64,000 nucleotides of DNA, taken from a virus. The notes under the pieces are model-generated. The model saw only the letters and a program-made list of their open reading frames with translations, was not told the DNA's origin and did no database searches. Below, one piece after another: positions 4,598 through 50,468 of the stretch; positions within the stretch are counted from its first letter, which is position 1, and every line of letters starts with the position of its first letter. The translations under genes were made by a program, and so were the position numbers. The DNA lies in IMG/VR virus record IMGVR_UViG_3300029893_000003, positions 18,175 through 82,174 of that record, one strand, 5' to 3'.

Positions 4598-5175
4598 TAT
4601 TCTTCTTCCTTTTCAGGTTCATCAATCCGAACTATATACGTAGAAGAAAAACTTCCTTCTTTGATATGAGGAACAGCAGTCATCGTAGAAATAATATTAC
4701 CCGTAGAATCTATAAATTGAATCACTAACCCATCTTCCGTCGCCGTTCCTATGGTTTCTACTTTTTCGCCTACCTGCCGCAACAAAGCATCCGTCTGATC
4801 CGCCCGTTCTCTAATAAGTTCTTCTAATGTGTCTAGCTTTTTGTCATAAGACGCAGTTACAGAGGTAATTAATCCAGTAAGCGCACCCAAATTTTCACTA
4901 ACCGTACTTAATACTTTCGTGTTAGCTTGATAAGCTAACCGAACAAGCTTTCCTTCTGCTATACTTTCTGCCACCAAATCAGTGAGGGTTTGTTCTAGTC
5001 GAATCTGTTTTTCTTCTAGCCCTATTCTAGCAGAATCCTCTTTACTTTTGCTGGTTGCTTGATGATAAATTGTTCTCGCCAACCACAGCATAATAACTAC
5101 TAAAGCTCCCGCTAAACCCCCCTCTAAATTTGAATCATCGATTCCCAAGAAGTGGTCGCCAAGTAGGAAATACAT
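4597..5175 (-). CDS. Membrane-anchored coiled-coil protein
   Basis: A 192-residue protein with one membrane segment near residues 20-38 (GALVVIMLWLARTIY). It is followed by a long helical, coiled-coil-prone region up to about residue 140, then a short beta-type tail ending in acidic residues. The layout resembles phage membrane proteins such as spanins or tail-associated membrane proteins, but no family is certain. The ATG has CTAGGAG upstream inside the hairpin region that follows the capsid gene. Confidence 0.55.
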   Translation of the reverse strand: MYFLLGDHFLGIDDSNLEGGLAGALVVIMLWLARTIYHQATSKSKEDSARIGLEEKQIRLEQTLTDLVAESIAEGKLVRLAYQANTKVLSTVSENLGALTGLITSVTASYDKKLDTLEELIRERADQTDALLRQVGEKVETIGTATEDGLVIQFIDSTGNIISTMTAVPHIKEGSFSSTYIVRIDEPEKEEE

Positions 5176-8373: not shown

Positions 8374-9106
8374 GAACTTCTACCTTACTAAATGTATATG
8401 GGCTTTCTGCTTCATGATCTAAACAAACAACACAATTTTCCGCCGAAGGATTTACGTTCCAATAAACGTAATAATTATCCTCATCTTCATCTACTTCCAA
8501 CCAGCATTTGCACAACGATTTTCCAAGACAGTCGTCACCTGGGAGATAAGGCATCATAAAAGTAATATCGACAGGAATAGTGCCCGCTATAAACGGTGCT
8601 CTGGCATACCCATACAGAGAAGAACGCCACTGTAGACGACCACTATAAATTACTCCGCTAGACAACGCCTCACGAATGTCTGCCTCAAATCCATCGAAGT
8701 ATTCATATTCCCTCTCTAAACGCTGTTCTAAGATTTCCCTGTGCCGTTCAGTAAATTCCTCTCCTTGCAAACCCAACAGCATAAGATCAGAAAAATGGAT
8801 ACGCAGACGATCTCTAAACCGCTCCGAAAATTCCCTTATTGATAAGGCTCCCGACAAAACAGCGACCAGCAATTCCTGAAATTCTTGGGATGCCTCTTCA
8901 CAAAGTTCTTCGTATTCCTGTTCGTCCCGCTCATCATACTGCTTCTTTCCTTTACCAGCAGCATGTATGCACGCGAAAATAGCCTCTTCTTCAGACCCGC
9001 CATCTCTCAAAACCGCATTAGCGGCTCTGATACAACGTTTCTTTTCTGAGACTGTCCAATTCTTAGCAACTTTTGGCACGTAATTGGGATAACGATAGGG
9101 ACTCAT
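8357..9106 (-). CDS. Head-morphogenesis (minor capsid) protein with ChaB-like N-terminus
   Basis: A 249-residue protein. Residues 15-55 (WTVSEKKRCIRAANAV, then EEEAIFACIHAAGK) resemble a ChaB-type small helical domain. The remainder is long helices followed by a Cys-rich end (CLGKSLCKCWLEV near residue 195, CVVCLDHEA near 228) reminiscent of SPP1 gp7-like minor head proteins. Its start overlaps the portal stop as ATGA, the usual portal-minor head order. The Cys-rich end may bind metal. Confidence 0.6.
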   Translation of the reverse strand: MSPYRYPNYVPKVAKNWTVSEKKRCIRAANAVLRDGGSEEEAIFACIHAAGKGKKQYDERDEQEYEELCEEASQEFQELLVAVLSGALSIREFSERFRDRLRIHFSDLMLLGLQGEEFTERHREILEQRLEREYEYFDGFEADIREALSSGVIYSGRLQWRSSLYGYARAPFIAGTIPVDITFMMPYLPGDDCLGKSLCKCWLEVDEDEDNYYVYWNVNPSAENCVVCLDHEAESPYTFSKVEVHGLTT

Positions 9107-11664
9107 TTCGTAACCAACTCACTTACTATCCTACGCGCTTCTTGTATGTCTTTAGCAGTTATTTTTTTGTAGCCCTTCCTCTCAGTATGAGAATCAATGC
9201 CACCAACAATCTGATCTGTTCCAAAGGTAATTTCACTCGGCTGCTCCGTAGGCTGCGAAGATAAACGAGATTCGATCTCAGGTATCATCCATTCTGGTAT
9301 ATCACCTGACTCAACCGCCAACTGCCTTGCAGCAATCGCATCAATCTCTCCACTACGAACTAACAAAGCACGTTCTTTAGCTCTAATAAATCTCGCCTCT
9401 GCCCGTTCCCTGTCAGACCGAATATCCTGTTCCTTAAACTCAAACCGAACATTATAAGGAAGATGAGAATTTATCTTATCTTCCAACATCGTCATAATCA
9501 GGGCAGGGCCTTTACCCCTCGTCTTGAGATGGAGAATTTCAGACTGTCCAGATGATCCAAGATTACCGGACATGAGTGGGGCAAACTCTTGATAATCCAC
9601 ACCAAAAGCAAGCGCCAACTGTGCTATATACCATTTAAAGGTTGTGTCTTCGTTAAACGAATCTGGTAATGTTGCCAGATCAATGTGAACGTGACTGAGT
9701 GGGTGAGTAGGATCAACCCCAGGAATAATCACTGGTTGCGAAAAACGATATAAACCACGATTAAGGTTTTGTTCTTCTGCCAGCAACACCGCATCATCAA
9801 TGTTTGATTTTGATACGCCACCGATAATATCAATGGCGCGAGTAAAGTTGCCGCCTACCTTTTCTTTCTTATAGATGGAAATGTCTCTAAGAATTTGGGC
9901 GGCGAGTAGGGCACGGGATGTAGCACAATATTGCATGCCATACATTTCTTCGATGGGAGAAGGAAACTCTTCTAACGTTTCTACTCTCCACCAGGGCATT
10001 GCATGCTCTCTACCATAAAAGTCTCTATAAATAACTGGATATTCTGGATCACCAGTTCGCCAACAACGTCCTGAGTCCAGGTGTGCAAAATTAATCACAG
10101 GAGAAGTAGGGTTATTATTATCAACCCTAATAATTTCCCAAAAGGCGCCATTATCCTGTGTGTTGTGAGAAACAAGATTTCCAGCAATAAAATTGCGAGT
10201 TTTGTCTACTCCAATATGATAGGTGGTTTCTACAACCTTCCCGGTTGCTCCTATATAGTCTTTCTGTTCTATTTTTTCAATTTCATCAAAGTAGATTTTT
10301 GCAGGTTCCAACTCCCACACAGAAGGATTAAATGGTTTTGTGTGTTGTCCCATCTTATACTGCATAGACGGAATTATATATTCGCTGATATAGGACACCA
10401 CTGCACGATAACCATCGGCAGTGAAACGAATCCTATAATACTTGTCCTTTATCGGTTGCACCTTACAAGAAAAACCACGCGAGGTAAGTTCCTCAGCAAG
10501 CCATTCAACATCTTCTTTTTCAAATCCATCTGTGCATAAAACAGCGTGTTCTGATTGATTGTTTGCTGTGGTAAGTGTTCTCTGGCACGCCCCGTCATCC
10601 ATAAACCATATTGCAAGCATACGGGGAGAGAAGTATTTCACAAAGTCTTCCCTATTAACTCGCTTCTTCCCGTCTGGATACCATCTATCAAACCAAGGAG
10701 ATAGCCCCAAAGAAGCTAGCGAGTTTACTCCTATGATGTGTGCTCCTTTTTCTGTGAGCCTAGAATTTTGCCCTGTCCAACCAAACTCTTTTAACAAAGA
10801 CTTCTTAAATTCTAGATAATCAGACTGATCAACAGAGTGTCTAAAGCGGATAATTGCTCTCTTGGTAAAACGAGACATACTCATATCCCCAAGCAACCCG
10901 CCCACAAGTACCTCTGCCTGTTCTTCTGAAGGAACAAGATCAGAAGTACCTATCTTATCAGTAGGTAGCAAGTCTTTAGCTTGTACCCAACCACGATCAG
11001 TTAGCATGGGATGATCTTCAGTTAAAAAGATTCCTCCTTGCTTTCCTCCATGACCATGATTAGTTGCTAGTTTAGTAGACAGGAAATACCATTTACGATT
11101 CCCTAGTGGCGTAGAATGCCATTCAGTAACCATCTGTTCTACCAAAGTTCCGTCAGAACCAACGCTAATCACAGGACCAGGATCACGATCCTTTACCATT
11201 CTTGCTATCGTCTTTGTTTTTCCTAGTCGATCCCCCCCTAGCTTAACTTTAGTATTACCAGCCAAGCAATAGAGGTCAATACAAGTTTTAAGAATTAAAT
11301 CGTACCACCCCTTACCACGATTTGATCGCTGGATAATCTCAGTAACCTTGTTAATTGTATTTTTAGGTCGCGGTTTAGTCTTGTCTGTGCCTTCAATATG
11401 CCACGCAAAACTGGCGTTACGAATTGAAACACCATAAACCGCGCTTGCCAAAAGGGACTCTGTGTGCCAAAATTCCCGTAATTCCCTATCTCGTTTAACA
11501 GGATCTTTGCCCCAGGGCGTAATTGAATCGGCAGTTGTCGCCAGTTGTAAAATCAAGGGGCCAACACGCGGCGTCCTGTTATTAGGCGGCGTCTCAACAA
11601 CAGAGTTTTCAAAAAGCTCTGGTAACAATTCTTTTTCTTCTACAAAATCACTACCGACTGCCAT
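9103..11664 (-). CDS. Portal protein precursor containing an intein
   Basis: An 853-residue precursor. The flanking parts (residues 1-132 and 502-853) read as a phage portal protein: PLILQLATTADSITPWGKDP, FWHTESLLASAVYGVSIRNA, and further on MQYCATSRALLAAQILRDI and a typical helical crown region. A 369-residue intein lies between them. Removing it gives a portal of 484 residues, a normal size. The portal forms the dodecameric DNA entry ring of the head. It overlaps TerL upstream by 14 bases. Confidence 0.85.
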   Translation of the reverse strand: MAVGSDFVEEKELLPELFENSVVETPPNNRTPRVGPLILQLATTADSITPWGKDPVKRDRELREFWHTESLLASAVYGVSIRNASFAWHIEGTDKTKPRPKNTINKVTEIIQRSNRGKGWYDLILKTCIDLYCLAGNTKVKLGGDRLGKTKTIARMVKDRDPGPVISVGSDGTLVEQMVTEWHSTPLGNRKWYFLSTKLATNHGHGGKQGGIFLTEDHPMLTDRGWVQAKDLLPTDKIGTSDLVPSEEQAEVLVGGLLGDMSMSRFTKRAIIRFRHSVDQSDYLEFKKSLLKEFGWTGQNSRLTEKGAHIIGVNSLASLGLSPWFDRWYPDGKKRVNREDFVKYFSPRMLAIWFMDDGACQRTLTTANNQSEHAVLCTDGFEKEDVEWLAEELTSRGFSCKVQPIKDKYYRIRFTADGYRAVVSYISEYIIPSMQYKMGQHTKPFNPSVWELEPAKIYFDEIEKIEQKDYIGATGKVVETTYHIGVDKTRNFIAGNLVSHNTQDNGAFWEIIRVDNNNPTSPVINFAHLDSGRCWRTGDPEYPVIYRDFYGREHAMPWWRVETLEEFPSPIEEMYGMQYCATSRALLAAQILRDISIYKKEKVGGNFTRAIDIIGGVSKSNIDDAVLLAEEQNLNRGLYRFSQPVIIPGVDPTHPLSHVHIDLATLPDSFNEDTTFKWYIAQLALAFGVDYQEFAPLMSGNLGSSGQSEILHLKTRGKGPALIMTMLEDKINSHLPYNVRFEFKEQDIRSDRERAEARFIRAKERALLVRSGEIDAIAARQLAVESGDIPEWMIPEIESRLSSQPTEQPSEITFGTDQIVGGIDSHTERKGYKKITAKDIQEARRIVSELVTK
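10162..11268 (-). mobile_element. Intein with LAGLIDADG endonuclease in the portal gene
   Basis: The intein runs from Cys133 to Asn501. It starts CLAGNTKVKL, has a block-B His in LTEDHPML, LAGLIDADG-like motifs VGGLLGDMS and AIWFMDDGA, and ends AGNLVSHN, with Thr as the first downstream residue. These are the residues needed for standard protein splicing. The endonuclease motifs suggest homing competence. The splice site is Y-C to N-T in the N-terminal part of the portal. Confidence 0.9.
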
Positions 11665-17379: not shown

Positions 17380-18610
17380 GACTGCTCCCCACGGCTAAAG
17401 CCGGGGGCTTCTAGGACCGGAGTCCAGGCTCGCCAGCCCGCGAGCCAAAATGTTCAGAGATGCATTGAGATCGCGGTCCAGTTTCAGGCCGCAGTAAGGA
17501 CAGTCGTGGACACGCACACTCAAGTCTTTCGGAACCACCGCGCCGCAGCCGGAGCATTCTTGCGTTGTGCCTCTGGGGTTAACGCGCAGCACAGCACGAC
17601 CGGCACTTTCAGCCTTGTACGTGGTGAACTGCACGAACTGGCCCCAGGCCACGTCCGCGATATTCCGGTTGACAACCCGGTTTCCGTTGGACTGCATGTC
17701 CGCGATGTCCAACTTCTCAAAGACGATCAGGCCGAAGCGGTTGACGAGCTTGCGGCTCTCCTGGTGCGCGAAGTCGGCGCGCCGGTTGGTGGCGCGCTGG
17801 TAGGCATGGTTGAGCGCGCGCAGCACCTTGCGGCGCTCCGGCGAGCCTTTAGCGAACTGTTCTTTCTTGCGCTGCAAGCGGGCGATGTCCGCCGCATCGC
17901 GTTTCATCCAGCACTGGCGCGGGATACTGTCGCCGGTACTCAGCATGGCGAACGTCTTCAGGCCGAGATCCACGCCCACCACTTCAGGCGACGGGGGCAG
18001 AGGCGCGGCGTCTACTTCGCACGAAAAGCAGGCGTACCAGTTGCCTACGCTATCGCGCCGGATGATGACTGTTTTGGGTGTGCCTTCCAGGGGGCGATGC
18101 AGCTTGATTTTCACGGCTCCGATTTTCGAGAGCGTGAGCCGGTTACCGTCCAACTTCACCCCATTACCACACTGCGGATAGGTGAAACTGTCGTACCAGC
18201 CACGTCCCTTGAAGCGCGGGTAGCCGGGCTTCTCACCTGCCTTGACGCGGCGAAAGAATGCCTGGAACGCCAGATCGACGCGTGTGCACGCTTCTTGAAG
18301 CGACTGCGAAAAGGCGTTATTGAGAAATGGCTGCTCGGCTTTCCAGCCGGGGATCAGCTTAATCGTATCGAAGCGCGTCAGCGTTTCGCGGTTAATGTCC
18401 CAGGCATCGCGGCGCACTTCAAGCGTCGTGTTGTAAACCCACCGACAAGCATCCAATGCGCGCAGCAAGGCGGTGCGTTGGGCAGAAGTAGGAAAGAGGC
18501 GGTACTTGTAGGTCAATCGCATAGCCCGATTATACCATTTATGCTACAGGTTCACAAACATATGGCGCACCTTATATCCCCCTGCCTTCAGGCAGAGGTT
18601 TTACGGCGCT
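17380..18610 (-). mobile_element. IS200/IS605-type element carrying tnpB only
   Basis: The element is bounded by a right-end hairpin at 17386-17410 (CCCACGGC..GCCGGGGGC type) and a left-end hairpin at 18579-18598 (CCCCTGCC TTCA GGCAGAGG). It contains tnpB but no tnpA, so it needs a transposase from elsewhere. It is much richer in GC than its surroundings, a sign of recent arrival. In this family the right end also encodes the guide RNA. Exact ends are approximate. Confidence 0.75.
17395..18522 (-). CDS. tnpB: RNA-guided endonuclease TnpB
   Basis: A 375-residue TnpB. It begins with the typical MRLTYKYRLFPT, has the conserved FFRRVKAGEKPGYPRFKG, and a RuvC core with Asp in VGVDLGL, Glu in VFEKLDI and Asp in LDRDLNASLNIL. 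A zinc ribbon (CSGC and CPYC) lies just before the last RuvC motif. All three catalytic acids are present, so it may be active. TnpB proteins cut DNA using an RNA from the element's right end. Confidence 0.9.
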   Translation of the reverse strand: MRLTYKYRLFPTSAQRTALLRALDACRWVYNTTLEVRRDAWDINRETLTRFDTIKLIPGWKAEQPFLNNAFSQSLQEACTRVDLAFQAFFRRVKAGEKPGYPRFKGRGWYDSFTYPQCGNGVKLDGNRLTLSKIGAVKIKLHRPLEGTPKTVIIRRDSVGNWYACFSCEVDAAPLPPSPEVVGVDLGLKTFAMLSTGDSIPRQCWMKRDAADIARLQRKKEQFAKGSPERRKVLRALNHAYQRATNRRADFAHQESRKLVNRFGLIVFEKLDIADMQSNGNRVVNRNIADVAWGQFVQFTTYKAESAGRAVLRVNPRGTTQECSGCGAVVPKDLSVRVHDCPYCGLKLDRDLNASLNILARGLASLDSGPRSPRL

Positions 18611-32239: not shown

Positions 32240-33517
32240 TCACCGCGATCCATCCGTTGCAACAGCATCGCCGTTCTGAGCTTCGCGGGACACGTTTGAC
32301 CCACTGGCCTGCGTTTCGTCCCGCGCGCCCGGTACAGGCGCTTTCAACCCTAAGCGAAGGATGTTCTTCGCTGCGTTCACGTCGGCGTTTTCTTCATGCC
32401 CGCACGAAAGACACCGGAACCGCGCTTGTGTTTTACGATTTTCGGCGTCCACTACGCCGCACTCGGAGCACGTTTGACTCGTGTACGCTGGCGGCACCTT
32501 GACCAACTGGACGCCGCGCTCGGCACACTTGTATTCGAGCAGTTGCCAGAAGGTCGCAAAGCCGGCATCGTGCGCGCTCATGGCGAGACGCTTGTTTTCG
32601 ATCATGAAGTCCAGCGTCAGATCTTCGATGGCGATCAGCCCGTAGGTGCTCGTGAGCCAGTCGGTGACGGTGTGCCAGAAATACCACCGCTGTTGTCTGA
32701 TTCGGTCCTCCAGCTTGCGCAACTGGCGCTCGGTTTCCTGCATGCGCGTGGACTTGTGCCAGATGAACACGCCGGGTTTGGGCGTGCCGTCCGCATTGTA
32801 GTTCTGCGGGTTGTTGGCGCGGCGCTGGCGGTCCAGCTTGCGCATAAGCACGCGGCGCTTCTGCTGCCCTTCCCGATACCAGCGCGGGTTATCAATGGTC
32901 GTGCCGTCGCTGAGCGCCAGCAGGTAGACCATGCCCACGTCAATGCCAACGGCGGGCTTCTGTGAAGGTTCCGGCTCGGCGTCGGGTATTTCAAGCTGGA
33001 GGGCGGCGTACCACTGGCCGCGCCGGTTGCGCAGCACGAGCACGTACTTGATGACGCTCAGGGGCGGCAGATCGCGGTGAAAGCGCAGACGGATGTCACC
33101 ACAGTTGGCGATGCGCAGCTTAGCCCACCCGTCCGACGTTTCGATGAGTTTGCACCCACTACCGTACTTGTAACCCAGGCTGCGGAAGTGGTAGCGCCCC
33201 TTGAAGCGCGGGAAGCCCGGTGTTTCGCCCGCCTTGACGCGGCGGAAGAACGCTTTATAGGCTTTGTCCAGGCGGCGCATAAGGTCATCTACCGTGTCAT
33301 AGGGCAGCAGCCCGAACGTGTCCGGTTCCTCTTTGCGCAGTGCGCACCAGTGATCACGCAGGTCATACAGGCTGATGCTCTCGCCGCGTTCCTCATACGC
33401 TTCCTTGCGCATGGCGAGGGCACCGTTGTAGATTTTGCGCCCCTGCCACAGCAGGAAGTCGAACGTCCGCGCTTGCGCCCTCGTCGGATACAGCCGGTAC
33501 TTGTACGTCCGAATCAT
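32240..33517 (-). CDS. tnpB: RNA-guided endonuclease TnpB
   Basis: A 425-residue TnpB with start at MIRTYKYRLYPTRAQ. The upstream part of the longer frame is left-end sequence. RuvC residues are Asp in VGIDVGMVYLL, Glu in AIEDLTLDFM, and Asp in NADVNAAKNIL. A zinc ribbon (CSECG..CLSCG) is present. All catalytic acids are intact. It is not closely similar in sequence to the copy at 17395, so the two elements arrived separately. Confidence 0.9.
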   Translation of the reverse strand: MIRTYKYRLYPTRAQARTFDFLLWQGRKIYNGALAMRKEAYEERGESISLYDLRDHWCALRKEEPDTFGLLPYDTVDDLMRRLDKAYKAFFRRVKAGETPGFPRFKGRYHFRSLGYKYGSGCKLIETSDGWAKLRIANCGDIRLRFHRDLPPLSVIKYVLVLRNRRGQWYAALQLEIPDAEPEPSQKPAVGIDVGMVYLLALSDGTTIDNPRWYREGQQKRRVLMRKLDRQRRANNPQNYNADGTPKPGVFIWHKSTRMQETERQLRKLEDRIRQQRWYFWHTVTDWLTSTYGLIAIEDLTLDFMIENKRLAMSAHDAGFATFWQLLEYKCAERGVQLVKVPPAYTSQTCSECGVVDAENRKTQARFRCLSCGHEENADVNAAKNILRLGLKAPVPGARDETQASGSNVSREAQNGDAVATDGSR

Positions 33518-33555
33518 CGCCGCCCCAGAACAGAACACCCCGCCGAAGATTGTGT

Positions 33556-33626
33556 GTTGTCTAGGCACACGCGCGCGGCAGGGTGTTCCGTCCACAATCA
33601 TAACGCACGTATCATGCCTAGACAAC
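33556..33626. repeat. 12-bp perfect inverted repeat in tnpB left region
   Basis: GTTGTCTAGGCA at 33556-33567 pairs with TGCCTAGACAAC at 33615-33626. Could fold in the tnpB leader or serve transposition. Confidence 0.5.
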
Positions 33627-33742
33627 ATTAGTATACCGCACATTCGTTCGCAAAGCAAAATCAGAAAGGAGGCAAGCGCCATTCCCAACCGGGCTAAAAC
33701 CCGGTGTCCCCTGGCGCAATTTCGATGGGCACGTTAAGACAT

Positions 33743-41387: not shown

Positions 41388-41534
41388 ATGAAAACCCTAC
41401 TCGAATGGGTGTTAGGCATTTCTGTATGTTCGGTAATTCTGTATGCTGGCTACGAGAATCCAAATAGTTATGTAATGTTGGGAATGGTTGTGACTGTGGT
41501 GGTGTCCAGTCTTTTGCTTACCAAACGGGCCTGA
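41388..41534 (+). CDS. Small membrane protein, 48 residues
   Basis: AGGAG lies six bases before the ATG. The product MKTLLEWVLGISVCSVILYAG has two hydrophobic segments. Its 3' end overlaps a tRNA-like element (41527-41612). Function unknown. Confidence 0.5.
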   Translation: MKTLLEWVLGISVCSVILYAGYENPNSYVMLGMVVTVVVSSLLLTKRA

Positions 41535-41612
41535 CAGGTTTCGATGGCGGGGAGTCTTGCAGTTGGGTGTTAGGCTCCCCGCTAGACCTACGTTCAATTC
41601 GTAGCAGGTCCA
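41527..41612 (+). ncRNA. tRNA-like/tmRNA-like small RNA
   Basis: Acceptor-type stem GGGCCTG/CAGGTCC (one G-T pair), a T arm CTACG TTCAATT CGTAG and discriminator A. Instead of D and anticodon arms there is GGTTTCGAT, like the tmRNA 5' region, and one 8-bp hairpin GCGGGGAG/CTCCCCGC with a 20-base loop. The loop holds GCA GTT GGG TGT TAG. It could be a minimal tmRNA-like RNA or a decayed tRNA. Confidence 0.45.
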
Positions 41613-42542: not shown

Positions 42543-43096
42543 TGAGTAAACTACTTGATCCTCAAGAGTTTTGGGAGTCTATTCGTAGTGAAGAGAGTGC
42601 AGCGTGGCCTGTTGTGTGTGTTGATTTGAATGGTGTGTTGGATATTCCCTCTCGTTGGAACGGGAAGGTAGAAAAGTATCCAGTTGCACCAGGGGCCTCG
42701 CTGTTTCTTTCCCGGTTGCGTCTTCATTTTAATACGGTCGTTGTATTTACAGCTATTATGCCTGTTGAATTTGCTATAGAGTGGTTAGAAGAACACGATT
42801 TACTAAAGTATGTGCATTTCGTTACTAACTACAAAATTCCCGCTGCTGTATATATTGACGACAAAGCCGTTTGTCATTACGGAAATTTTGATGATACGCT
42901 ACAGCGTGCTATTCGTCATGTTCCGCATTGGCAAAATCATAAACGCTTAGAGCGACCACAAGAGGTAGAACAATTTATTTCTATCTACGACAAAAAATCC
43001 CAAATCACTGGTGGGCATAACGTTTTAGAGTTTGCTGTTGTTCAGTACATTAGACAGCTAGAGGGAAAATTACATGACTTGGAGAGCGGTATATGA
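42542..43096 (+). CDS. HAD-family phosphatase-like protein
   Basis: A 184-residue protein. Motif I is VVCVDLNGVLD (nucleophile Asp, usually DxDG; here DLNG). Motif II is FTAIMP, and motif IV is YIDDKAVCHYG. This matches phage HAD proteins that act on small phosphates or nucleotides. The cap region is short. Coupled to the Fic gene by overlap. Confidence 0.65.
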   Translation: MSKLLDPQEFWESIRSEESAAWPVVCVDLNGVLDIPSRWNGKVEKYPVAPGASLFLSRLRLHFNTVVVFTAIMPVEFAIEWLEEHDLLKYVHFVTNYKIPAAVYIDDKAVCHYGNFDDTLQRAIRHVPHWQNHKRLERPQEVEQFISIYDKKSQITGGHNVLEFAVVQYIRQLEGKLHDLESGI

Positions 43097-43673
43097 CAAG
43101 ATTGGCTGTTTAGAAGAAGACGAATTACTATGGAAACTAATCCTACATGAAAAGGATCGGTTTATGTGTACACTGGCACAAGCGTCGGATTTGTTGGAAG
43201 GGGAGCGGTATCTCGATCATACAGCACATGCAAAGGCTATGATGTATGCTGTTAATGAGGGGGAACAAGGAAAGCCACTAACTTTGTACACGGTGCTTAG
43301 AATACACCAACTTGCCTTTCCGTATGGTGGTCACTTTAGGAATTGTACTCCCATTATCTTTAATAGTTCCTTTGAGCCACCTGCCCCACCTATCGCTCCC
43401 CATGTACAGGATTGGATCAAACGCTATTGGGATGATCCCCTTGCAAATGCAGACATAGAGTATTATGATATAGTTTTAGCACATATTCGGTTTGAAGAAA
43501 TCCACCCGTTTGTAGACGGGAACGGTCGGGTGGGACGGATTCTGAACAACTACATGTGCGCGTATGCGGGGCTTCCTTTGTTGAATATCTGTGATAGAGA
43601 AGCCTATCTAGACTGTATGCGTCGTGGGCATATACAAGATTTAGTCCAGCTTTTTAGAAGGAGTGCGGTATGA
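43074..43673 (+). CDS. Fic-family AMP-transferase-like protein
   Basis: A 199-residue Fic protein. The core motif HPFVDGNGRVGR is complete (residues about 142-153), followed by LNNYMCAYAGLP. Fic proteins transfer AMP or other groups from nucleotide-containing molecules to target proteins. No clear inhibitory (S/T)xxxE(G/N) helix was noticed. Preceded by GAGGGA. Sits in a block of small host-interaction-type genes. Confidence 0.8.
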   Translation: MTWRAVYDKIGCLEEDELLWKLILHEKDRFMCTLAQASDLLEGERYLDHTAHAKAMMYAVNEGEQGKPLTLYTVLRIHQLAFPYGGHFRNCTPIIFNSSFEPPAPPIAPHVQDWIKRYWDDPLANADIEYYDIVLAHIRFEEIHPFVDGNGRVGRILNNYMCAYAGLPLLNICDREAYLDCMRRGHIQDLVQLFRRSAV

Positions 43674-43972: not shown

Positions 43973-44270
43973 TGTGAGTGATTTTCTTTACTACTTATTA
44001 CTTATTTTAGACTTCCTTATGCCAAAACGAACTGACAACTACCAGGAATATCTACGATCTTCTAGGTGGAGAGGCATAAGGAAAAGGGCCTTGGAACGGG
44101 CGGGTTATCGGTGTCAGCTATGTAACTCGCCCACCAGACTACAGGTACACCATCGGACGTATGATCGACTAGGAAATGAACGGCTTGATGATCTTATTGT
44201 GCTGTGTCAAAAATGTCATACAGCGTTTCATGTACACAGGAAATTGCACAAACCTAGAAAAAGGGCTTGA
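43965..44270 (+). CDS. HNH endonuclease
   Basis: A 101-residue HNH nuclease: LRSSRWRGIRKRALERAGYRCQLC, LQVHHRTYDRLGNERLDDLI, LCQKCHTAFHVHRK. Both Cys pairs and the HH dyad are intact. Start is uncertain (43965 or 44020, MPKRTDNYQEYL). It may cut phage or host DNA, be a homing nuclease, or help packaging. A promoter for a structured RNA overlaps its end. Confidence 0.8.
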   Translation: MNSVSDFLYYLLLILDFLMPKRTDNYQEYLRSSRWRGIRKRALERAGYRCQLCNSPTRLQVHHRTYDRLGNERLDDLIVLCQKCHTAFHVHRKLHKPRKRA

Positions 44271-44295
44271 CAAAGGTTTTGAGGTATGCTATACT
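44267..44295 (+). promoter_or_regulatory. Consensus-like promoter for the upstream ncRNA
   Basis: TTGACA (44267-44272), 17-base spacer, TATACT (44290-44295). Predicted start about 44302. No protein gene follows, consistent with an RNA gene. Confidence 0.75.
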
Positions 44296-44301
44296 GTGTA
44301 C

Positions 44302-44652
44302 AGTGAGACAGAAAGCTGCGTGGGTGGCGGCTAGGAAACCTTCAGTCGAATTGAGACGAGTTTTATTGTTAGTCCTTAATGCCGCCACCGACGAAGTTGA
44401 AGGGCTTGAAGTAGAGGCAACCAAACATTCATAGCGTACACTCTCCTTTTGGTTAGCCGATGAGAAAACTTTATCCTTAAAGGTTGCCTCTACTTCAAGC
44501 CTTTGCGACGGGCTTTGACCTAGACAATAGGAGTCCCCCTTTGTGCAGAGGGGAGTGCCGTAGGAGCGCAGGTAAAGGTTGCACAGCCATCCTACCTCTT
44601 GATGGTGGGCAGGAGTAAATATAATTTCATACTTATATCCCACCTTTTTTTT
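44302..44652 (+). ncRNA. Structured RNA of unknown family, about 350 nt
   Basis: It has its own promoter, no protein frame and a terminator. Helices: 9-bp GGTGGCGGC (44323-44331) with GCCGCCACC (44381-44389); a perfect 20-bp helix between 44403-44422 and 44482-44501; hairpin TCCCC/GGGGA (44534-44555) and GTAGGA..TCCTAC. It does not match tmRNA, RNase P RNA or 6S RNA as I know them. Its position next to the Ro60 locus suggests a partner RNA; this is inference. Confidence 0.7.
44604..44652 (+). terminator. Terminator of the upstream ncRNA
   Basis: GGTGGG (44604-44609) pairs with CCCACC (44639-44644) and is followed by eight T (44645-44652). Confidence 0.75.
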
Positions 44653-44653
44653 C

Positions 44654-44682
44654 TTGACAAGTTAAATGAAGTGTGTTAAAGT
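44654..44682 (+). promoter_or_regulatory. Promoter of the Y-RNA-like array
   Basis: TTGACA (44654-44659), 17-base spacer, TAAAGT (44677-44682). The predicted start (about 44689) coincides with the first base of the first hairpin RNA (44688), strong support for an RNA gene. Confidence 0.75.
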
Positions 44683-44687
44683 AAGGC

Positions 44688-44751
44688 TAGCGAACCGAAA
44701 AGGCGTGGTTATCCATGATCGAATACTCCACCCTTGTTTACTTGTTCGCTA
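44688..44751 (+). ncRNA. Y-RNA-like RNA 1
   Basis: Terminal stem TAGCGAAC/GTTCGCTA encloses CCGAAAAGG, an inner stem GG-c-GTGG/CCAC-CC with a bulged C, a loop, and CTTG on the 3' side. This is the layout of the Ro60-binding part of Y RNAs (CCGAA opposite CTTG). It is 64 nt. Confidence 0.6.
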
Positions 44752-44757
44752 AAACAT

Positions 44758-44839
44758 GCGTGTCCAGGACTGGCAGGCGTTGGCCCTAAGCGAAGTTCAA
44801 GCCAACATCACCTGCGGGGGTTCAACTCCCTCGACACGC
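44758..44839 (+). ncRNA. tRNA-like RNA with long central hairpin
   Basis: Perfect acceptor-type stem GCGTGTC/GACACGC and a T arm GGGGG TTCAACT CCCTC. Centre: GCAGG..CCTGC and GTTGGC/GCCAAC with a 16-base loop. It is not a canonical tRNA (no 7-base anticodon loop). Could be another tRNA-like Y RNA module. Confidence 0.45.
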
Positions 44840-44841
44840 TC

Positions 44842-44914
44842 TATCGAGCCGAGGGGTTCAGGGTTACCTACATAGCGAATGTAAACCAATTCCCTACCCG
44901 CACCTTGCTCGATA
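44842..44914 (+). ncRNA. Y-RNA-like RNA 2
   Basis: Terminal stem TATCGAGC/GCTCGATA, then CCGAGGGG on the 5' side and CACCTTG on the 3' side. Inner hairpin GGTT..AACC closing TACAT AGCGA ATGTA. Matches the Y-RNA layout with A changed to G in CGAA (CGAG). Confidence 0.6.
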
Positions 44915-44929
44915 AAAACTAGTAATGAT

Positions 44930-45047
44930 GTGAGCCGAAGGAACTTGGTTATCGACTTGTAATCGACGGTTGCGGGTTCGAATCCCGTCCCTGCGGGGTA
45001 GCTTAATGTGGAAAAGCAGTAAAAAGCCAATTCCGTCCCTTGCTCAC
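44930..45047 (+). ncRNA. yrlA: YrlA-like Y RNA with permuted tRNA module
   Basis: Terminal stem GTGAGC/GCTCAC, motif GCCGAAG, inner stem GGAA-c-TTGG/CCAATTCC and 3' CCCTTG. Enclosed module in order: arm ATCGA CTTGTAA TCGAC, T arm GCGGG TTCGAAT CCCGT, fused CCCTGCGGGG, then TA and D arm GCTT AATGTGGAA AAGC. So tRNA parts occur in circularly permuted order. Bacterial YrlA-type Y RNAs are known tRNA mimics that bind Ro60. Confidence 0.75.
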
Positions 45048-45076
45048 GTAATGTATGGACCGTTTTTGTCCGACTA

Positions 45077-45120
45077 GATAGGCGAGATAACAGAGTGGTT
45101 GGTTCCTGTTATTACTATCT
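45077..45120 (+). ncRNA. Additional hairpin of the RNA array
   Basis: AGATAG/CTATCT encloses ATAACAG/CTGTTAT with internal loop GCGAG against TA. The two-stem layout resembles the other units, but the CCGAA motif is not there. It may be a decayed unit. Confidence 0.35.
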
Positions 45121-45147
45121 GTGTCGGGCACATCGTCCGACACTTTT
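45121..45147 (+). terminator. Terminator or attenuator before the Ro60 gene
   Basis: GTGTCGG/CCGACAC with loop GCACATCGT followed by TTTT. It ends the RNA array 16 bases before the Ro60 start; read-through could express Ro60. Confidence 0.7.
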
Positions 45148-45162
45148 CATAAGGAGAATCTA

Positions 45163-46728
45163 ATGGATTACGGAAAGTATTTTAACACCCGCAAGACCCC
45201 TCAGAGCCAACCCCTTCCCAATCAAGTGCAGAATAACGCTGGTGGTTATTCTTTTCAGGTCGATAAGTGGATGTTGCTGGATCGCTTCCTGATCCTGGGT
45301 ACAGAGGGTGGATCGTATTACGTGGGGGAACAAGCTCTCACCGTTGAAAATGCGCGCGCTGCCTACGAATGTATTCAGGAAGACGGTATTCGTGTTGTGG
45401 ATCGCGTAGTAGAAATTTCTGTTCAGGGACGTGCAGCTAAGAATGATCCTGCTCTTTATGTTCTAGCTATGGCAGCAGGGACAGGTAATCTAGCCACGCG
45501 ACGGTACGCTTTATCATATCTTTCTGAGGTAGCGCGTACTGGAACACATCTATTTACCTTTGTTGATTACGTGCAGCAGTTTCGTGGGTGGGGTCGTGCC
45601 CTGAAAAATGCAGTTGGTAACTGGTATCTGGATCGCCCGATTGAGAAGTTGGCGTATCAGGCTATCAAGTACCGCAACCGTAAGGGCTGGACTCACGCTG
45701 ATGTGTTGCGTAAGGCACATCCAAAAGCCCACAACCAGCTTCAAAATGATCTGTTCAAGTGGATTGTAGATGGTGACGTGCCTAGTATCCAACTGGTACG
45801 GGCATTTGAGGCCGCTAAGACCGCTTCGGAAGATGATCTTGTAGCTTTGATTGCACAGTATGATCTTCCTCGCGAAGCCTTGCCTACTGAAGCCCTGAAC
45901 AGCCCGAAGGTATGGCGTTCTTTGTTGGTTCACATGCCGTTGATGGCCCTGGTTCGTAACCTGGGTAAGCTGAGTAATGTTGGCGTGGTCGCTCCTGGTC
46001 GTTGGGTGGAAATTGAACACACGGTTGGGATGCTGACAAACCGCCAAAAAATTCAGCAGTCTCGTATTCACCCTATTCAGGTACTTGCTGCGCTGACTAC
46101 CTATTCTCAGGGACGGGGCGTACGTGGCAGTTTAACGTGGGATGTGGTACCGGAGATTGTTGCAGCACTAAACACAACCTATGAAATGGCGTTTGATAAC
46201 GTAGAGCCGAGCGGAAAAAAGACACTGGTCGCGTTGGACGTGTCCTCGTCAATGACATGGGGCGAAGTGTCTGGTGTTCCGGGCTTGACTCCGCGTGTGG
46301 CGGCGGCTGCAATGGCAATGATGACCATCAAGACCGAACCATATACCCTGCCGTTGGCGTTTTCTACTGAGCCTACGCCGATGAATCTGAATAAGTCTAT
46401 GTCGCTGAATGAAGTAATCCGTGAGATGGAGCGTATTCGGTTTGGTGGTACGGATTGCGCCTTGCCGATGCTATGGGCACTAGAGAACAAGGCTGAAGTT
46501 GATCTATTTGTGGTGTATACAGATAGCGAAACGTGGTACGGAAAGATTCATCCTGTTCAGGCATTGCAAATGTATCGTGAGCAGATGGGCATTCCCGCAA
46601 AGTTGGCTGTTGTAGGGATGCTGGCAAATAAGTTTTCGATTGCCGATCCGAACGATCCTGGTATGCTAGATTTTGTGGGCTTTGATACATCTGTTCCACA
46701 GGCACTAGCCGAATTTGCTAAGATGTAG
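45163..46728 (+). CDS. rsr: Ro60-family RNA-binding protein (TROVE + vWA)
   Basis: A 521-residue Ro60 orthologue, start 45163 after AAGGAGAATCTA. The TROVE half has TPQSQPLPNQVQNNAGGYSF, DRFLILGTEGGSYYV, ARTGTHLFTF, WGRALKNAVGNWY, YRNRKGWTHADVLRKAHPK. The C-terminal vWA-like domain has the metal site LDVSSSM, GGTD and TDSETW. Ro60 is a ring that binds Y RNAs and misfolded RNA and, in bacteria, works with exoribonucleases such as PNPase. The array of Y-RNA-like genes sits immediately upstream, as expected for a functional partner. Confidence 0.92.
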   Translation: MDYGKYFNTRKTPQSQPLPNQVQNNAGGYSFQVDKWMLLDRFLILGTEGGSYYVGEQALTVENARAAYECIQEDGIRVVDRVVEISVQGRAAKNDPALYVLAMAAGTGNLATRRYALSYLSEVARTGTHLFTFVDYVQQFRGWGRALKNAVGNWYLDRPIEKLAYQAIKYRNRKGWTHADVLRKAHPKAHNQLQNDLFKWIVDGDVPSIQLVRAFEAAKTASEDDLVALIAQYDLPREALPTEALNSPKVWRSLLVHMPLMALVRNLGKLSNVGVVAPGRWVEIEHTVGMLTNRQKIQQSRIHPIQVLAALTTYSQGRGVRGSLTWDVVPEIVAALNTTYEMAFDNVEPSGKKTLVALDVSSSMTWGEVSGVPGLTPRVAAAAMAMMTIKTEPYTLPLAFSTEPTPMNLNKSMSLNEVIREMERIRFGGTDCALPMLWALENKAEVDLFVVYTDSETWYGKIHPVQALQMYREQMGIPAKLAVVGMLANKFSIADPNDPGMLDFVGFDTSVPQALAEFAKM

Positions 46729-46753: not shown

Positions 46754-46826
46754 GGGACTGTAGCTCAGCGGTTAGAGCAACCGGCTCATAACCGGTCGGT
46801 CACAGGTTCGAATCCTGTCAGTCCCA
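46754..46826 (+). tRNA. tRNA with CAU anticodon (Met or Ile2)
   Basis: A canonical cloverleaf: acceptor GGGACTG/CAGTCCC, D arm GCTC..GAGC, anticodon arm ACCGG CTCATAA CCGGT (anticodon CAT, 46787-46789), T arm ACAGG TTCGAAT CCTGT, discriminator A. The G1-C72 pair is unlike initiator tRNA. No CCA is encoded. Confidence 0.95.
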
Positions 46827-47414: not shown

Positions 47415-50400
47415 ATGCCTGAGCCTACACAAGAACAAGTTTCTATTATCAACTTCCCTGCTGATGAACATCTAGCTGTTGAAGCGGTCCCAGGTAGTGG
47501 GAAGTGTCTGGGTAAGGATACCCCCGTTATGTTATTTGATGGGACGGTTAGAGCGGTACAAGATATAGTACCCGGCGATTTGTTAATGGGACCAGACTCA
47601 AAGCCTCGCACTGTTTTGTCTACTTCCGTAGGGTATGGAAATTTGTACAAAATTGTACCTACCAAGGGAGATGCGTGGATATGTAATGAAGAACATATCT
47701 TAACATTGGTCTATTCGGGAAAGGAAGAAGTTGAAGACGTATCTCTGTCAGAGTATTTTACTAGGTCAAGAGCATATCGTGAAAGGGCTAAGCTGTTCCG
47801 TGTTCCTGTGGACTTTCCTAAAAAAGAACTTCCTGTTGATCCTTACTTGTTGGGAGTTTGGTTAGGGGATGGACATAGAGACAACCCAATAATCACTAAT
47901 AAAGAACCTATTATACAAGAGTATTGCGTAGCAAAGGCTAATGAGCTAGGAATATCTGCTATTGTAGTAGATGCTCCTGAAATAAATAGCCAATATATTT
48001 ATCTAACAAACAACTACAAAGGAAATCCGTTACGCAAATTTTTTGCTTCTTGTGTTACTGATGATGGAGAAAAATTTATCCCGCAGGACTATCTTACCAG
48101 CAGCAGAGAAGATCGTTTAGATTTGTTGGCAGCCCTATTAGATACAGATGGATATTATAATGGTGGGTCCTTTGAAATTACTACCAAATATAACACCCTG
48201 AAAGACAACATATTGTTTCTAGCCAGAAGTTTGGGCTTTGCTGCCTATGCAAAACGCAAAGTAGCTGCTATCAAATCTCTAGACTTTTCAGGAGAATATT
48301 GGAGAATATCAATTAGTGGGGATGTAAGTATTATTCCCAATAAGATTCCTCGTAAACAAGCGTTTCCGCGACGACAGATTAAAAATGTGTTGCGTACAGG
48401 GTTTTCTGTGGAAGGCATAGGGAAAGGAGCATATTACGGATTTACACTAGATGGTGATGGCAGGTTTTTGTTGGGTGACTTTACTGTAACTCACAATACG
48501 TTTACCATTGCCTACCGAGTAAAGGCTTTCTTGGATCAGGGGGTTGATCCTGCTAATATTCTGGTGTGTACGTTCTCTCGCTCACAGGCAGAAGATATGT
48601 CTCTCCGTATTCTATCCTTCCTAAAGCAGCACTACCCTACTATCGGCCTATCTGCTTTAGCGAATGGGTTTGGCGAGGGCATAGGACAGATTACGACCAT
48701 CCACGCTACAGCTAGACGTATGCTAATCCACTATCCCGAATACACTAAGTATTCAGAACTACAAGTTGCTCCTACATGGAAAGAGCGTAGCATTATTGAA
48801 AACTTTGTGGAAAGAATTAACTGGACGTACTACAATGTCCGAGAGAAAAAAGAAGCTCTCGTTGGCTATCAGTCAATTTTATTCTACATTAACAACGCTA
48901 AAAATGCGGGTGTCAATCTTAATGTAGCAGAACTGACTGAATACTACCTTAGTACGGGATTGGGTAGAGAACACGTTCGTAACTTGGTGTCTACCACCCT
49001 GCACTACCAACAAGAACTACAACGCAACAATATGTGGACGTTTGCTGATATGCTGTATGAGTGCGAGAAGCAGCTTCGAGAGGATGCGGCTTTCCGTTCG
49101 TACTGGCATGATCGGTTTACTCATGTGTTGATTGACGAAGCACAGGACACTAATGGACAGGCTATGCGAATTGTCCATCTCCTTAATCCTAGTAGTATTA
49201 CTGTGGTGGGAGACGCTGATCAAACGTTGTACGCTTTCAATGGAGCAACACCAGATACCAACCTGCGTACAGGTTTTGATCAGCGGTTTGGCGGCGGTCG
49301 TCTTTCTATGTCAGTTAATTTCCGTAGCCAACCTAACATCCTGAAACGAGCAGGGCTTCTTATTCGTCATAACTATGACAGTGAAACGATCAAATATATG
49401 AAAAACCTACAGCCACGCGAGGGTGTAGCTGTTGGAGATGATGTAACCTTTTCGTGGTATCAAGACGCCGAAGAAGAGGCGCGAGGAGTTGTTGCTAATC
49501 TTGTTCAATACATGGAAGAAGGGCATGTCCCTGGTGACTTCTTTATCATGTCGCGCACAAACGCGCAGATGGCGTACTTTGAACTAGAACTTTTAAACCA
49601 CAATCTGCCCTTTGTGAACTTGGGCGTATCTAGTTTCTTTAACCGTCCGGTGCCGCGTATGCTGCTTAACTACATGCGGCTGGCTGTTGATCCGACTGAT
49701 TGGGAAGCTTTTGATATTGTCCACAACGTAGCTTCTTGTTGGATGACTAACAACCAAGGCAAACCAATCAACACACGGTTCTTAGGACAGAAATTCCTAG
49801 AGAGACTTTCCCGCACCAATGGCGATGGAACCCCTACAAACTCTCTGGAAGAGGCGTATGCCCATAAATACGATACTGATCAACGTGGGTGGACACGCTG
49901 GCAGAGGGGTGTTCAGGACTTGCAGGATACTATGCAGGCTCTTGCTGGATATGAAATGTCGCACAACGCAGGATCGTTGGCCTCTGAGATTACACGGATT
50001 GTAGTAGATAAGTGGATTGAAAACGAGTTTGGTGTTGAAACAGACGCTTCTGACGGTGCGCGGGATGATCTTCAGGTGGTGTTGGCGTTGGCTAAACGGT
50101 TTACAGTGCGTGATTTTCTTGAGTATGTGCGCCAGCTAACCGCTACTAAAGACATTAAGCCAGAGAATATGACGGACTATATTCTAATTGGCACAATCTA
50201 TAAGTTTAAGGGTTTGGAGCGTCCGATAGTTTACGTGGTTGGTGCCAGTCAGGGCCTACTACCACACCGTTTCAGTTTGGGGGAAACCCCCCCGACCGAT
50301 GGCTTGCCCATTCCCTCTACCGGAAGTTTGTGGGATGAGCGGAACGTCATGTATGTGGCAGTAACCCGCGCTAAAGACGTATGCCACATTTCGGGTATTC

Positions 50401-50468
50401 AGAACTGGGCAACTATCAAAGACCCGCTTGAGCCTTCTATCTTCGTACAGGAAATGGAGTTGTTGTAA
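47415..50468 (+). CDS. UvrD/Rep-like SF1 DNA helicase precursor with intein
   Basis: A 1017-residue precursor; 686 residues after splicing. Walker A is AVPGSGK-T, split by the intein. Other SF1A motifs: QITTIHATARRML, LIDEAQDTNG (Walker B), VVGDADQTLYAFNGA (motif III), LSMSVNFRSQPNI (IV), GTIYKFKGLERPIVYVVGA (V) and NVMYVAVTRAKD (VI). It unwinds DNA during phage replication or recombination. Strong promoter upstream; first gene of the replication unit. Confidence 0.88.
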   Translation: MPEPTQEQVSIINFPADEHLAVEAVPGSGKCLGKDTPVMLFDGTVRAVQDIVPGDLLMGPDSKPRTVLSTSVGYGNLYKIVPTKGDAWICNEEHILTLVYSGKEEVEDVSLSEYFTRSRAYRERAKLFRVPVDFPKKELPVDPYLLGVWLGDGHRDNPIITNKEPIIQEYCVAKANELGISAIVVDAPEINSQYIYLTNNYKGNPLRKFFASCVTDDGEKFIPQDYLTSSREDRLDLLAALLDTDGYYNGGSFEITTKYNTLKDNILFLARSLGFAAYAKRKVAAIKSLDFSGEYWRISISGDVSIIPNKIPRKQAFPRRQIKNVLRTGFSVEGIGKGAYYGFTLDGDGRFLLGDFTVTHNTFTIAYRVKAFLDQGVDPANILVCTFSRSQAEDMSLRILSFLKQHYPTIGLSALANGFGEGIGQITTIHATARRMLIHYPEYTKYSELQVAPTWKERSIIENFVERINWTYYNVREKKEALVGYQSILFYINNAKNAGVNLNVAELTEYYLSTGLGREHVRNLVSTTLHYQQELQRNNMWTFADMLYECEKQLREDAAFRSYWHDRFTHVLIDEAQDTNGQAMRIVHLLNPSSITVVGDADQTLYAFNGATPDTNLRTGFDQRFGGGRLSMSVNFRSQPNILKRAGLLIRHNYDSETIKYMKNLQPREGVAVGDDVTFSWYQDAEEEARGVVANLVQYMEEGHVPGDFFIMSRTNAQMAYFELELLNHNLPFVNLGVSSFFNRPVPRMLLNYMRLAVDPTDWEAFDIVHNVASCWMTNNQGKPINTRFLGQKFLERLSRTNGDGTPTNSLEEAYAHKYDTDQRGWTRWQRGVQDLQDTMQALAGYEMSHNAGSLASEITRIVVDKWIENEFGVETDASDGARDDLQVVLALAKRFTVRDFLEYVRQLTATKDIKPENMTDYILIGTIYKFKGLERPIVYVVGASQGLLPHRFSLGETPPTDGLPIPSTGSLWDERNVMYVAVTRAKDVCHISGIQNWATIKDPLEPSIFVQEMELL
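47505..48497 (+). mobile_element. Intein with LAGLIDADG endonuclease in the helicase P-loop
   Basis: Cys31 to Asn361 (331 residues). Starts CLGKDTPVMLFDG, block-B His in CNEEHILTL, motifs LLGVWLGDGH and LAALLDTDGYY, ends GDFTVTHN followed by Thr. The insertion splits GSGK/T of Walker A, a classic intein hot spot. Confidence 0.9.

Follow-up and report, generated by a model that had tools for sequence, protein, structure and literature searches.

The DNA analysed here (the window) is a stretch of 64,000 nucleotides, positions 18,175 to 82,174 of the 82,174-base IMG/VR virus record IMGVR_UViG_3300029893_000003. It encodes a full-length phage orthologue of Ro60, a protein known as an autoimmune antigen in humans, and three Y RNAs of the Ro60-binding type lie directly upstream of the gene (rsr); we are very confident of the identity of these parts. 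An initial annotation made from the sequence alone had read the locus as a phage Ro60 with an array of such RNAs, a reading that proves largely right, while the novelty it implied was overstated, because phage Ro60 proteins and phage Y RNAs were already known. The locus is thus a further example of a known pairing, and the main interest lies in the wider comparison, in which many phage and bacterial Y RNAs appear as rebuilt tRNAs and have a short motif in common with those of animals. The parts of the locus on which the argument rests are the following.

45163 to 46728, plus strand: rsr, the Ro60 orthologue, 521 amino acids (Pfam, homology and AlphaFold2 model).
44688 to 44751, plus strand: Y RNA 1, simple; lower stem TAGCGAAC/GTTCGCTA, CGAA, upper stem, GGUUAUC, ACTT.
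44842 to 44914, plus strand: Y RNA 2, simple; lower stem TATCGAGC/GCTCGATA, CGAG, upper stem, GGUUACC, CCTT.
44928 to 45049, plus strand: Y RNA 3, YrlA type; Ro60 module with GGUUAUC and a tRNA-like T-arm/D-arm insert at 44968-45017.

The TROVE and vWA motifs from which Ro60 had been recognised stand: the Pfam domains TROVE (4e-38) and vWA_Ro60 (4e-67) together span the full length of the rsr product, whose best solved relative is Rsr of Deinococcus radiodurans (2NVO, 2e-129), with animal Ro60 proteins at about 1e-113. The metal ion-dependent adhesion site (MIDAS) is complete (D359-S361-S363, T430, D454), and H186 is present together with K169 and R173; neither the MIDAS residues nor H186 varies among 13 phage sequences or among 15 in a second set. 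By homology alignment H186 corresponds to H187 of Xenopus Ro60, and the H187S mutant of animal Ro60 no longer binds Y RNA (PMC11277228). The AlphaFold2 model (pLDDT 84.5) has the HEAT-ring and vWA fold and matches the Ro60 structures 2I91, 1YVP and 2NVO with TM scores of about 0.8. A tree of 172 Ro60 proteins places the window protein beside one Poribacteria sequence (local support 98), at the end of a long branch. The viral and genomic labels on this tree require 12 changes, which argues for repeated exchange between phages and cells, some of the "genome" contigs possibly being phage themselves.

The Y RNA array (44688-45049) adjoins rsr on the same strand, 113 bases 5' of its start codon. 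A simple scan for the binding layout (lower stem, C CGA(A/G) ... (C/T)TT G, lower stem) finds three strong sites in the window, all within 480 bases 5' of rsr, and one weak site elsewhere; a graded scan finds only the three Y RNAs, with a shuffled background of 0.0096 per kb. Independent recognition comes from R3, a covariance model built from 21 aligned simple Y RNAs of other phages with no window sequence in it. Across both strands of the 82-kb contig its only significant matches (E of 8e-6, 2.6e-4 and 4.5e-4 for Y RNAs 1 to 3; next E 0.5) are exactly the RNAs in which a terminal stem, CCGAA or CCGAG and CTTG had been noticed initially as "at least three", no fourth being found, and the ends of the matches coincide, base for base, with those of the predicted stems. 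A candidate fourth Y RNA at 45068-45128 was rejected, as R3 has no match there even at E 10. Y RNA 1 folds 3.7 standard deviations better than shuffled sequence, and the folding z is -2.98 for Y RNA 2 and -2.8 for Y RNA 3. Among 23 simple Y RNAs, including Y RNAs 1 and 2, the lower and upper stems covary at 0.811 against 0.237 +- 0.023 in shuffled alignments, with 93.8% of cells paired; the lower stem was used in choosing this set and the upper stem was not. All three RNAs match R3 and have the terminal stem and CCGAR/CTTG Ro60 site of a Y RNA, the covariation of the upper stem being drawn from sets with Y RNAs 1 and 2 in them.

The tRNA mimicry of Y RNA 3 had been missed by the initial annotation: its insert aligns to positions 27-81 of the Rfam YrlA model (RF02553) and has tRNA-like T and D arms. 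Of the Y RNA and YrlA models proposed as a check, our own R3 finds all three RNAs and the YrlA model reaches Y RNA 3 with only 33 bits (E 5.3e-5), below the gathering score of 69; we therefore name it YrlA-type and not a member of the Rfam family. The YrlA-like RNAs of known phages likewise fall below that score (33-52 bits). At gathering score Rfam recovers tRNA-Met alone here, and no Y RNA.

Ro60 homologues, most of them covering more than 80%, occur in 345 of 50,697 GenBank phage records, and relatives are present in 294 IMG/VR contigs. In 2014 Chen and others reportedly found Y RNAs close to Ro60 in over 250 species of bacteria and phages. YrlA-like RNAs lie near Ro60 in many phages, among them FuzzBuster, Cashline, Sparky, Alice, GMA2 and Forza, and PMC7765460, citing Sim and Wolin 2018, states that YrlA occurs in phages. 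In 63 phage Ro60 loci, preselected as likely holders of Y RNAs, R3 detects 109 RNAs, every one on the Ro60 strand and about a quarter (26) with a T-arm insert. At least one is present in 48 of these loci, at least two in 34 and at least three in 15; the window array is thus typical. Bacterial Ro60 loci, 79 of which were searched, give 83 R3 matches. Phage Ro60 loci often lie inside tRNA arrays. Two further observations concern such arrays: bacterial Ro60 genes are often set in dense tRNA arrays, as at loci L159, L134, L121, L099 and L174, with many tRNA-scoring matches to a second model, R1, within 5 kb, and the tRNA array of Gordonia phage GMA2 (L006:5485-5541) contains a match to the Rfam Pistol ribozyme at 56.8 bits, above gathering score, near a tmRNA and YrlA.

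The comparison also brings out a class of Y RNAs, here called tRNA-first (class III), that looks new. The YrlA layout encloses the tRNA-like part in an RNA whose two ends pair as the Ro60-binding stem, and the tRNA-first layout is the reverse: an acceptor stem, D-arm, upper stem, ACTTG and closed lower stem are followed by CCGAAG, upper stem, GGUUAUC, T-arm and acceptor, giving a cloverleaf with a closed Ro60-binding module in place of the anticodon arm. All five helices covary across 21 sequences (0.783 against 0.209 when shuffled); this set was selected by its acceptor and T-arm pairing, and the D-arm and the upper and lower stems mostly played no part in the choice. Above 65 bits, R1 finds 76 clear examples, 26 of them from 18 phage loci and 50 from 30 bacterial loci, with 7/7 acceptor pairs in 69 and an encoded CCA in 10; among them are L014:2659-2780, L083:4712-4832 and 4915-5048, and L109:3767-3889, and there are about 70 more. 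When 12 whole bacterial genomes (4-16 Mb) were searched, with only 150 candidates scored per genome, all 23 matches at E <1e-10 fell on the Ro60 contig, 112-1601 bases away. The class is not described in the open papers searched, a weak test of novelty. In the window the UUAUC motif is present and a tRNA-like element separates two of the Y RNAs, but there is no tRNA-first RNA; a class III match at 44857-44995 (55.7 bits) was rejected, as it merely joins the end of Y RNA 2 to the start of Y RNA 3. In two other Y RNAs (L071:4976-5116 and L074:1344-1492) the loop seems to enclose a tRNA-like unit that is not permuted, which would be a third arrangement of tRNA and Y RNA.

Directly after the upper stem, simple Y RNAs carry GGUUAUC or GGUUACC almost without exception, and the three Y RNAs of the window have UUAUC, UUACC and UUAUC, respectively. 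UUAYC follows the upper stem in 79 of the 88 R3 matches outside the training set, although R3 itself favours the motif. The tRNA-first set is a fair test, because it was chosen mainly by its tRNA-like ends, and there the motif occurs in 16 of 21 sequences as against 1.4% in shuffles. According to a review (PMC4726728), stem-bulge RNAs (sbRNAs) need the UUAUC loop motif for their activity in DNA replication, and vertebrate Y RNAs have it too; the same review terms the bacterial RNAs divergent, not homologous. One phage Y RNA (L060:2714-2787) reaches the Rfam gathering score for nematode sbRNA (RF01656; 38.1 against 38). Relative to the accessible literature, the presence of UUAUC or UUACC in phage and bacterial Y RNAs, at the position of the animal UUAUC, looks new, and either homology or convergence could account for it. 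We propose with moderate confidence that tRNA-first Y RNAs of phages and bacteria form an undescribed topological class and that the ancestral role of UUAUC belongs to the Ro60 particle and not to DNA replication in eukaryotes; if true, this role would follow from the conservation of the motif in phage and bacterial Y RNAs.

Further features surround the array and the gene.

44654 to 44682, plus strand: promoter-like site TTGACA-17-TAAAGT with TG before the -10, a consensus match only.
44758 to 44839, plus strand: tRNA-like element with acceptor GCGTGTC/GACACGC (7/7) and T-arm GGGGGTTCAACTCCCTC, from the element scan and fold.
45068 to 45143, plus strand: rsr leader, with a terminator-like hairpin at 45121-45143 and an overlapping alternative hairpin.
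46754 to 46826, plus strand: an ordinary tRNA-Met(CAT), directly 3' of rsr.

The tRNA-like element, which the initial annotation had overlooked, lies 6 bases 3' of Y RNA 1 and 2 bases 5' of Y RNA 2; it has a perfect T-arm, and a long arm replaces the D and anticodon arms. Elements like it arise in shuffled sequence at 0.0005 per kb. As a tRNA or tmRNA it receives no ARAGORN call and no Rfam match at that place, and having no Ro60 module it is ruled out as a tRNA-first Y RNA; it is probably a processing signal. Relatives have similarly tight neighbours: in L019 a real tRNA-Pro follows the first Y RNA after 6 bases, and L083 alternates Y RNA, tRNA-first, Y RNA, tRNA-first and Y RNA with gaps of 5 to 11 bases. 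Such "tRNA punctuation" of Y RNAs is a frequent pattern and not a general rule, only 24 of the 109 phage Y RNAs having a tRNA or tRNA-first RNA within 15 nt.

The promoter sequence named in the initial annotation is present (10 of 12 consensus positions), and its expected start falls no more than a few bases from the first base of the Y RNA 1 stem, but five such sites were found where 4.2 are expected in shuffled sequence, and so this evidence is weak on its own. The terminator placed between array and rsr exists as a hairpin (9 pairs, only 4 T), but the pattern is not above chance and a rival hairpin overlaps it, the alternatives being practically equal in energy (-26.2 against -26.6 kcal/mol); at a guess, the two could form an attenuator coupling rsr to the array. 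Upstream, in the stretch that separates an HNH gene from the Y RNA promoter, region 44302-44650, also missing from the initial annotation, is strongly structured (z -5.7, a hairpin of about 27 pairs). It is preceded by a promoter-like site (44267-44295, 11/12) and closed by a hairpin and eight T, which makes it a candidate RNA of about 350 nt; it has no Rfam match and no copies in the contig or the collected Ro60 loci. A minus-strand open reading frame of 129 amino acids spans the same region. Farther upstream, 41527-41611 combines a tmRNA-like start (GGGCCTGACAGGTTTCGATGGCG), a long stem, a T-arm and a 7-bp acceptor, with no room for a tag reading frame; it overlaps the stop codon of a small gene and has no Rfam or ARAGORN call.

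As the best explanation we propose, with moderate confidence, that the locus yields a phage Ro60 ribonucleoprotein. The three Y RNAs and the tRNA-like element would be transcribed 5' of rsr and then cut apart, the element probably marking the transcript for processing. With its lower stem and conserved bulge each Y RNA would bind the outside of the Ro60 ring, as we infer because the protein retains its binding residues and the site in the RNA is conserved. Once bound it would gate the ring, and the part that points outwards, which is a tRNA mimic in Y RNA 3 and a plain loop in the other two, may tether a host enzyme, most likely the exonuclease PNPase by analogy with Deinococcus; structured or damaged RNA would then be degraded during infection. 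In D. radiodurans a Y RNA tethers Rsr to PNPase in the decay of structured RNA (PMC7790460, PMC8394870). The genes, RNA structures, conservation and Ro60 linkage computed here support this proposal, and the Y RNAs probably direct the phage Ro60 to damaged or structured RNA; the "RNA quality control or degradation" and "different effectors" of the initial annotation are likewise roles that we infer. Several points weigh on the other side. The PNPase link is established in Deinococcus only, expression and binding at this locus are predictions, and the processing of the tRNA-like element is uncertain because it has no recognised D-arm and no CCA end. Searches of the contig for four families (PNPase/RNase PH, RNase II/R (RNB), RtcB and RNA ligase), which are not exhaustive, found no nuclease partner, and the effector would therefore have to be supplied by the host. 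From transcription, processing, binding and gating to the PNPase link and the RNA substrate, the mechanism taken as a whole seems to us evenly balanced.

Its best rival is that the tRNA-mimicking Y RNA and, in relatives, the tRNA-first Y RNAs, which lack an anticodon, are decoys that occupy anticodon nucleases of the host or other tRNA-directed defences, with Ro60 only stabilising and presenting them. Such a role against anticodon nucleases has been proposed for YrlA (PMC7790460), and it would suit both the frequent position of phage Ro60 loci within tRNA arrays and the tens of loci whose cloverleafs have the anticodon arm replaced; yet two of the three Y RNAs of the window have no tRNA-like part and the same RNAs also stand beside bacterial Ro60 genes, and we consider it unlikely. 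Equally doubtful is a protective particle that would sequester structured RNAs of phage or host (phage tRNAs, for example) under stress, its Y RNAs acting only as gates and no nuclease taking part: animal Ro60 scavenges unassembled small RNAs (PMC11277228), and none of the four nuclease and ligase families was found in the contig, but bacterial Rsr is known for assisting decay, not storage. That the array is tRNA-gene debris or chance hairpins, as the tRNA-like arms of Y RNA 3 and the tRNA arrays common near phage Ro60 might suggest, is, barring error, already refuted by the three matches to the independent R3 with none elsewhere in 82 kb, by the stem covariation of simple Y RNAs and by a shuffled background of only about 0.01 per kb.

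The same contig is present in GenBank as DYFG01000001.1 (82,041 bases, identical Ro60), assigned to a "Candidatus Nitrosotalea" metagenome bin from African mines. This archaeal label is probably a binning error, because the contig encodes a terminase, a tyrosine integrase, a DnaB-type helicase, a family A DNA polymerase and inteins. An exact-peptide search of IMG/VR with Ro60, the UvrD helicase and Fic returned no close relatives or only distant ones. Among the neighbouring genes, a Fic/DOC family protein (43074-43673), with only distant phage relatives, lies two genes 5' of the RNA array; inteins or homing-endonuclease insertions occur in the UvrD-like helicase gene (47415-50468) and in a second gene (9103-11664); and two TnpB/OrfB-type genes of the IS605 family lie on the minus strand (17395-18522 and 32240-33688), the second with a Cas12f-like domain.

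Phage Ro60 particles are widespread, and the compact window locus, in which a tRNA mimic accompanies two plain Y RNAs, is a good test case for finding out what each part of a Y RNA recruits. The comparison yields covariance models that detect Y RNAs where the Rfam YrlA model fails, and connects the UUAUC motif of animal Y RNAs with phages and bacteria. It also brings out tRNA-shaped Y RNAs that, with their tRNA-type ends, could enter tRNA processing.

Among known systems, the bacterial Rsr systems (the RYPER of Deinococcus radiodurans and the rsr-yrlBA-rtcBA operon of Salmonella) have the same protein family and fold, with 42% identity between the window Ro60 and Deinococcus 2NVO in the structural match, and their Y RNAs likewise adjoin the gene, one being of YrlA type. 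The window locus differs in lying on a phage contig, in having neither RtcB nor an encoded partner nuclease, and in an array where a tRNA-like element and one YrlA-type RNA accompany two simple Y RNAs. It resembles the known phage Ro60 genes ("Ro-like RNA binding protein", PHROG 850) and phage YrlA in pairing a homologue with nearby YrlA-like RNAs, whereas its protein is less than 60% identical to all of them and its array differs in content. The solved phage TROVE protein, Ro60 of Thermus phage phiLo (PDB 9L5Y), has the same fold as the window Ro60 but is far from it (20% identity), the Deinococcus and animal proteins being closer. Finally, although animal Y RNAs have no tRNA mimic and the window RNAs fall below the gathering score of RF01656, both they and the nematode sbRNAs share with the window RNAs a lower stem with CCGA/CTTG, an upper stem, and UUAUC directly after it.
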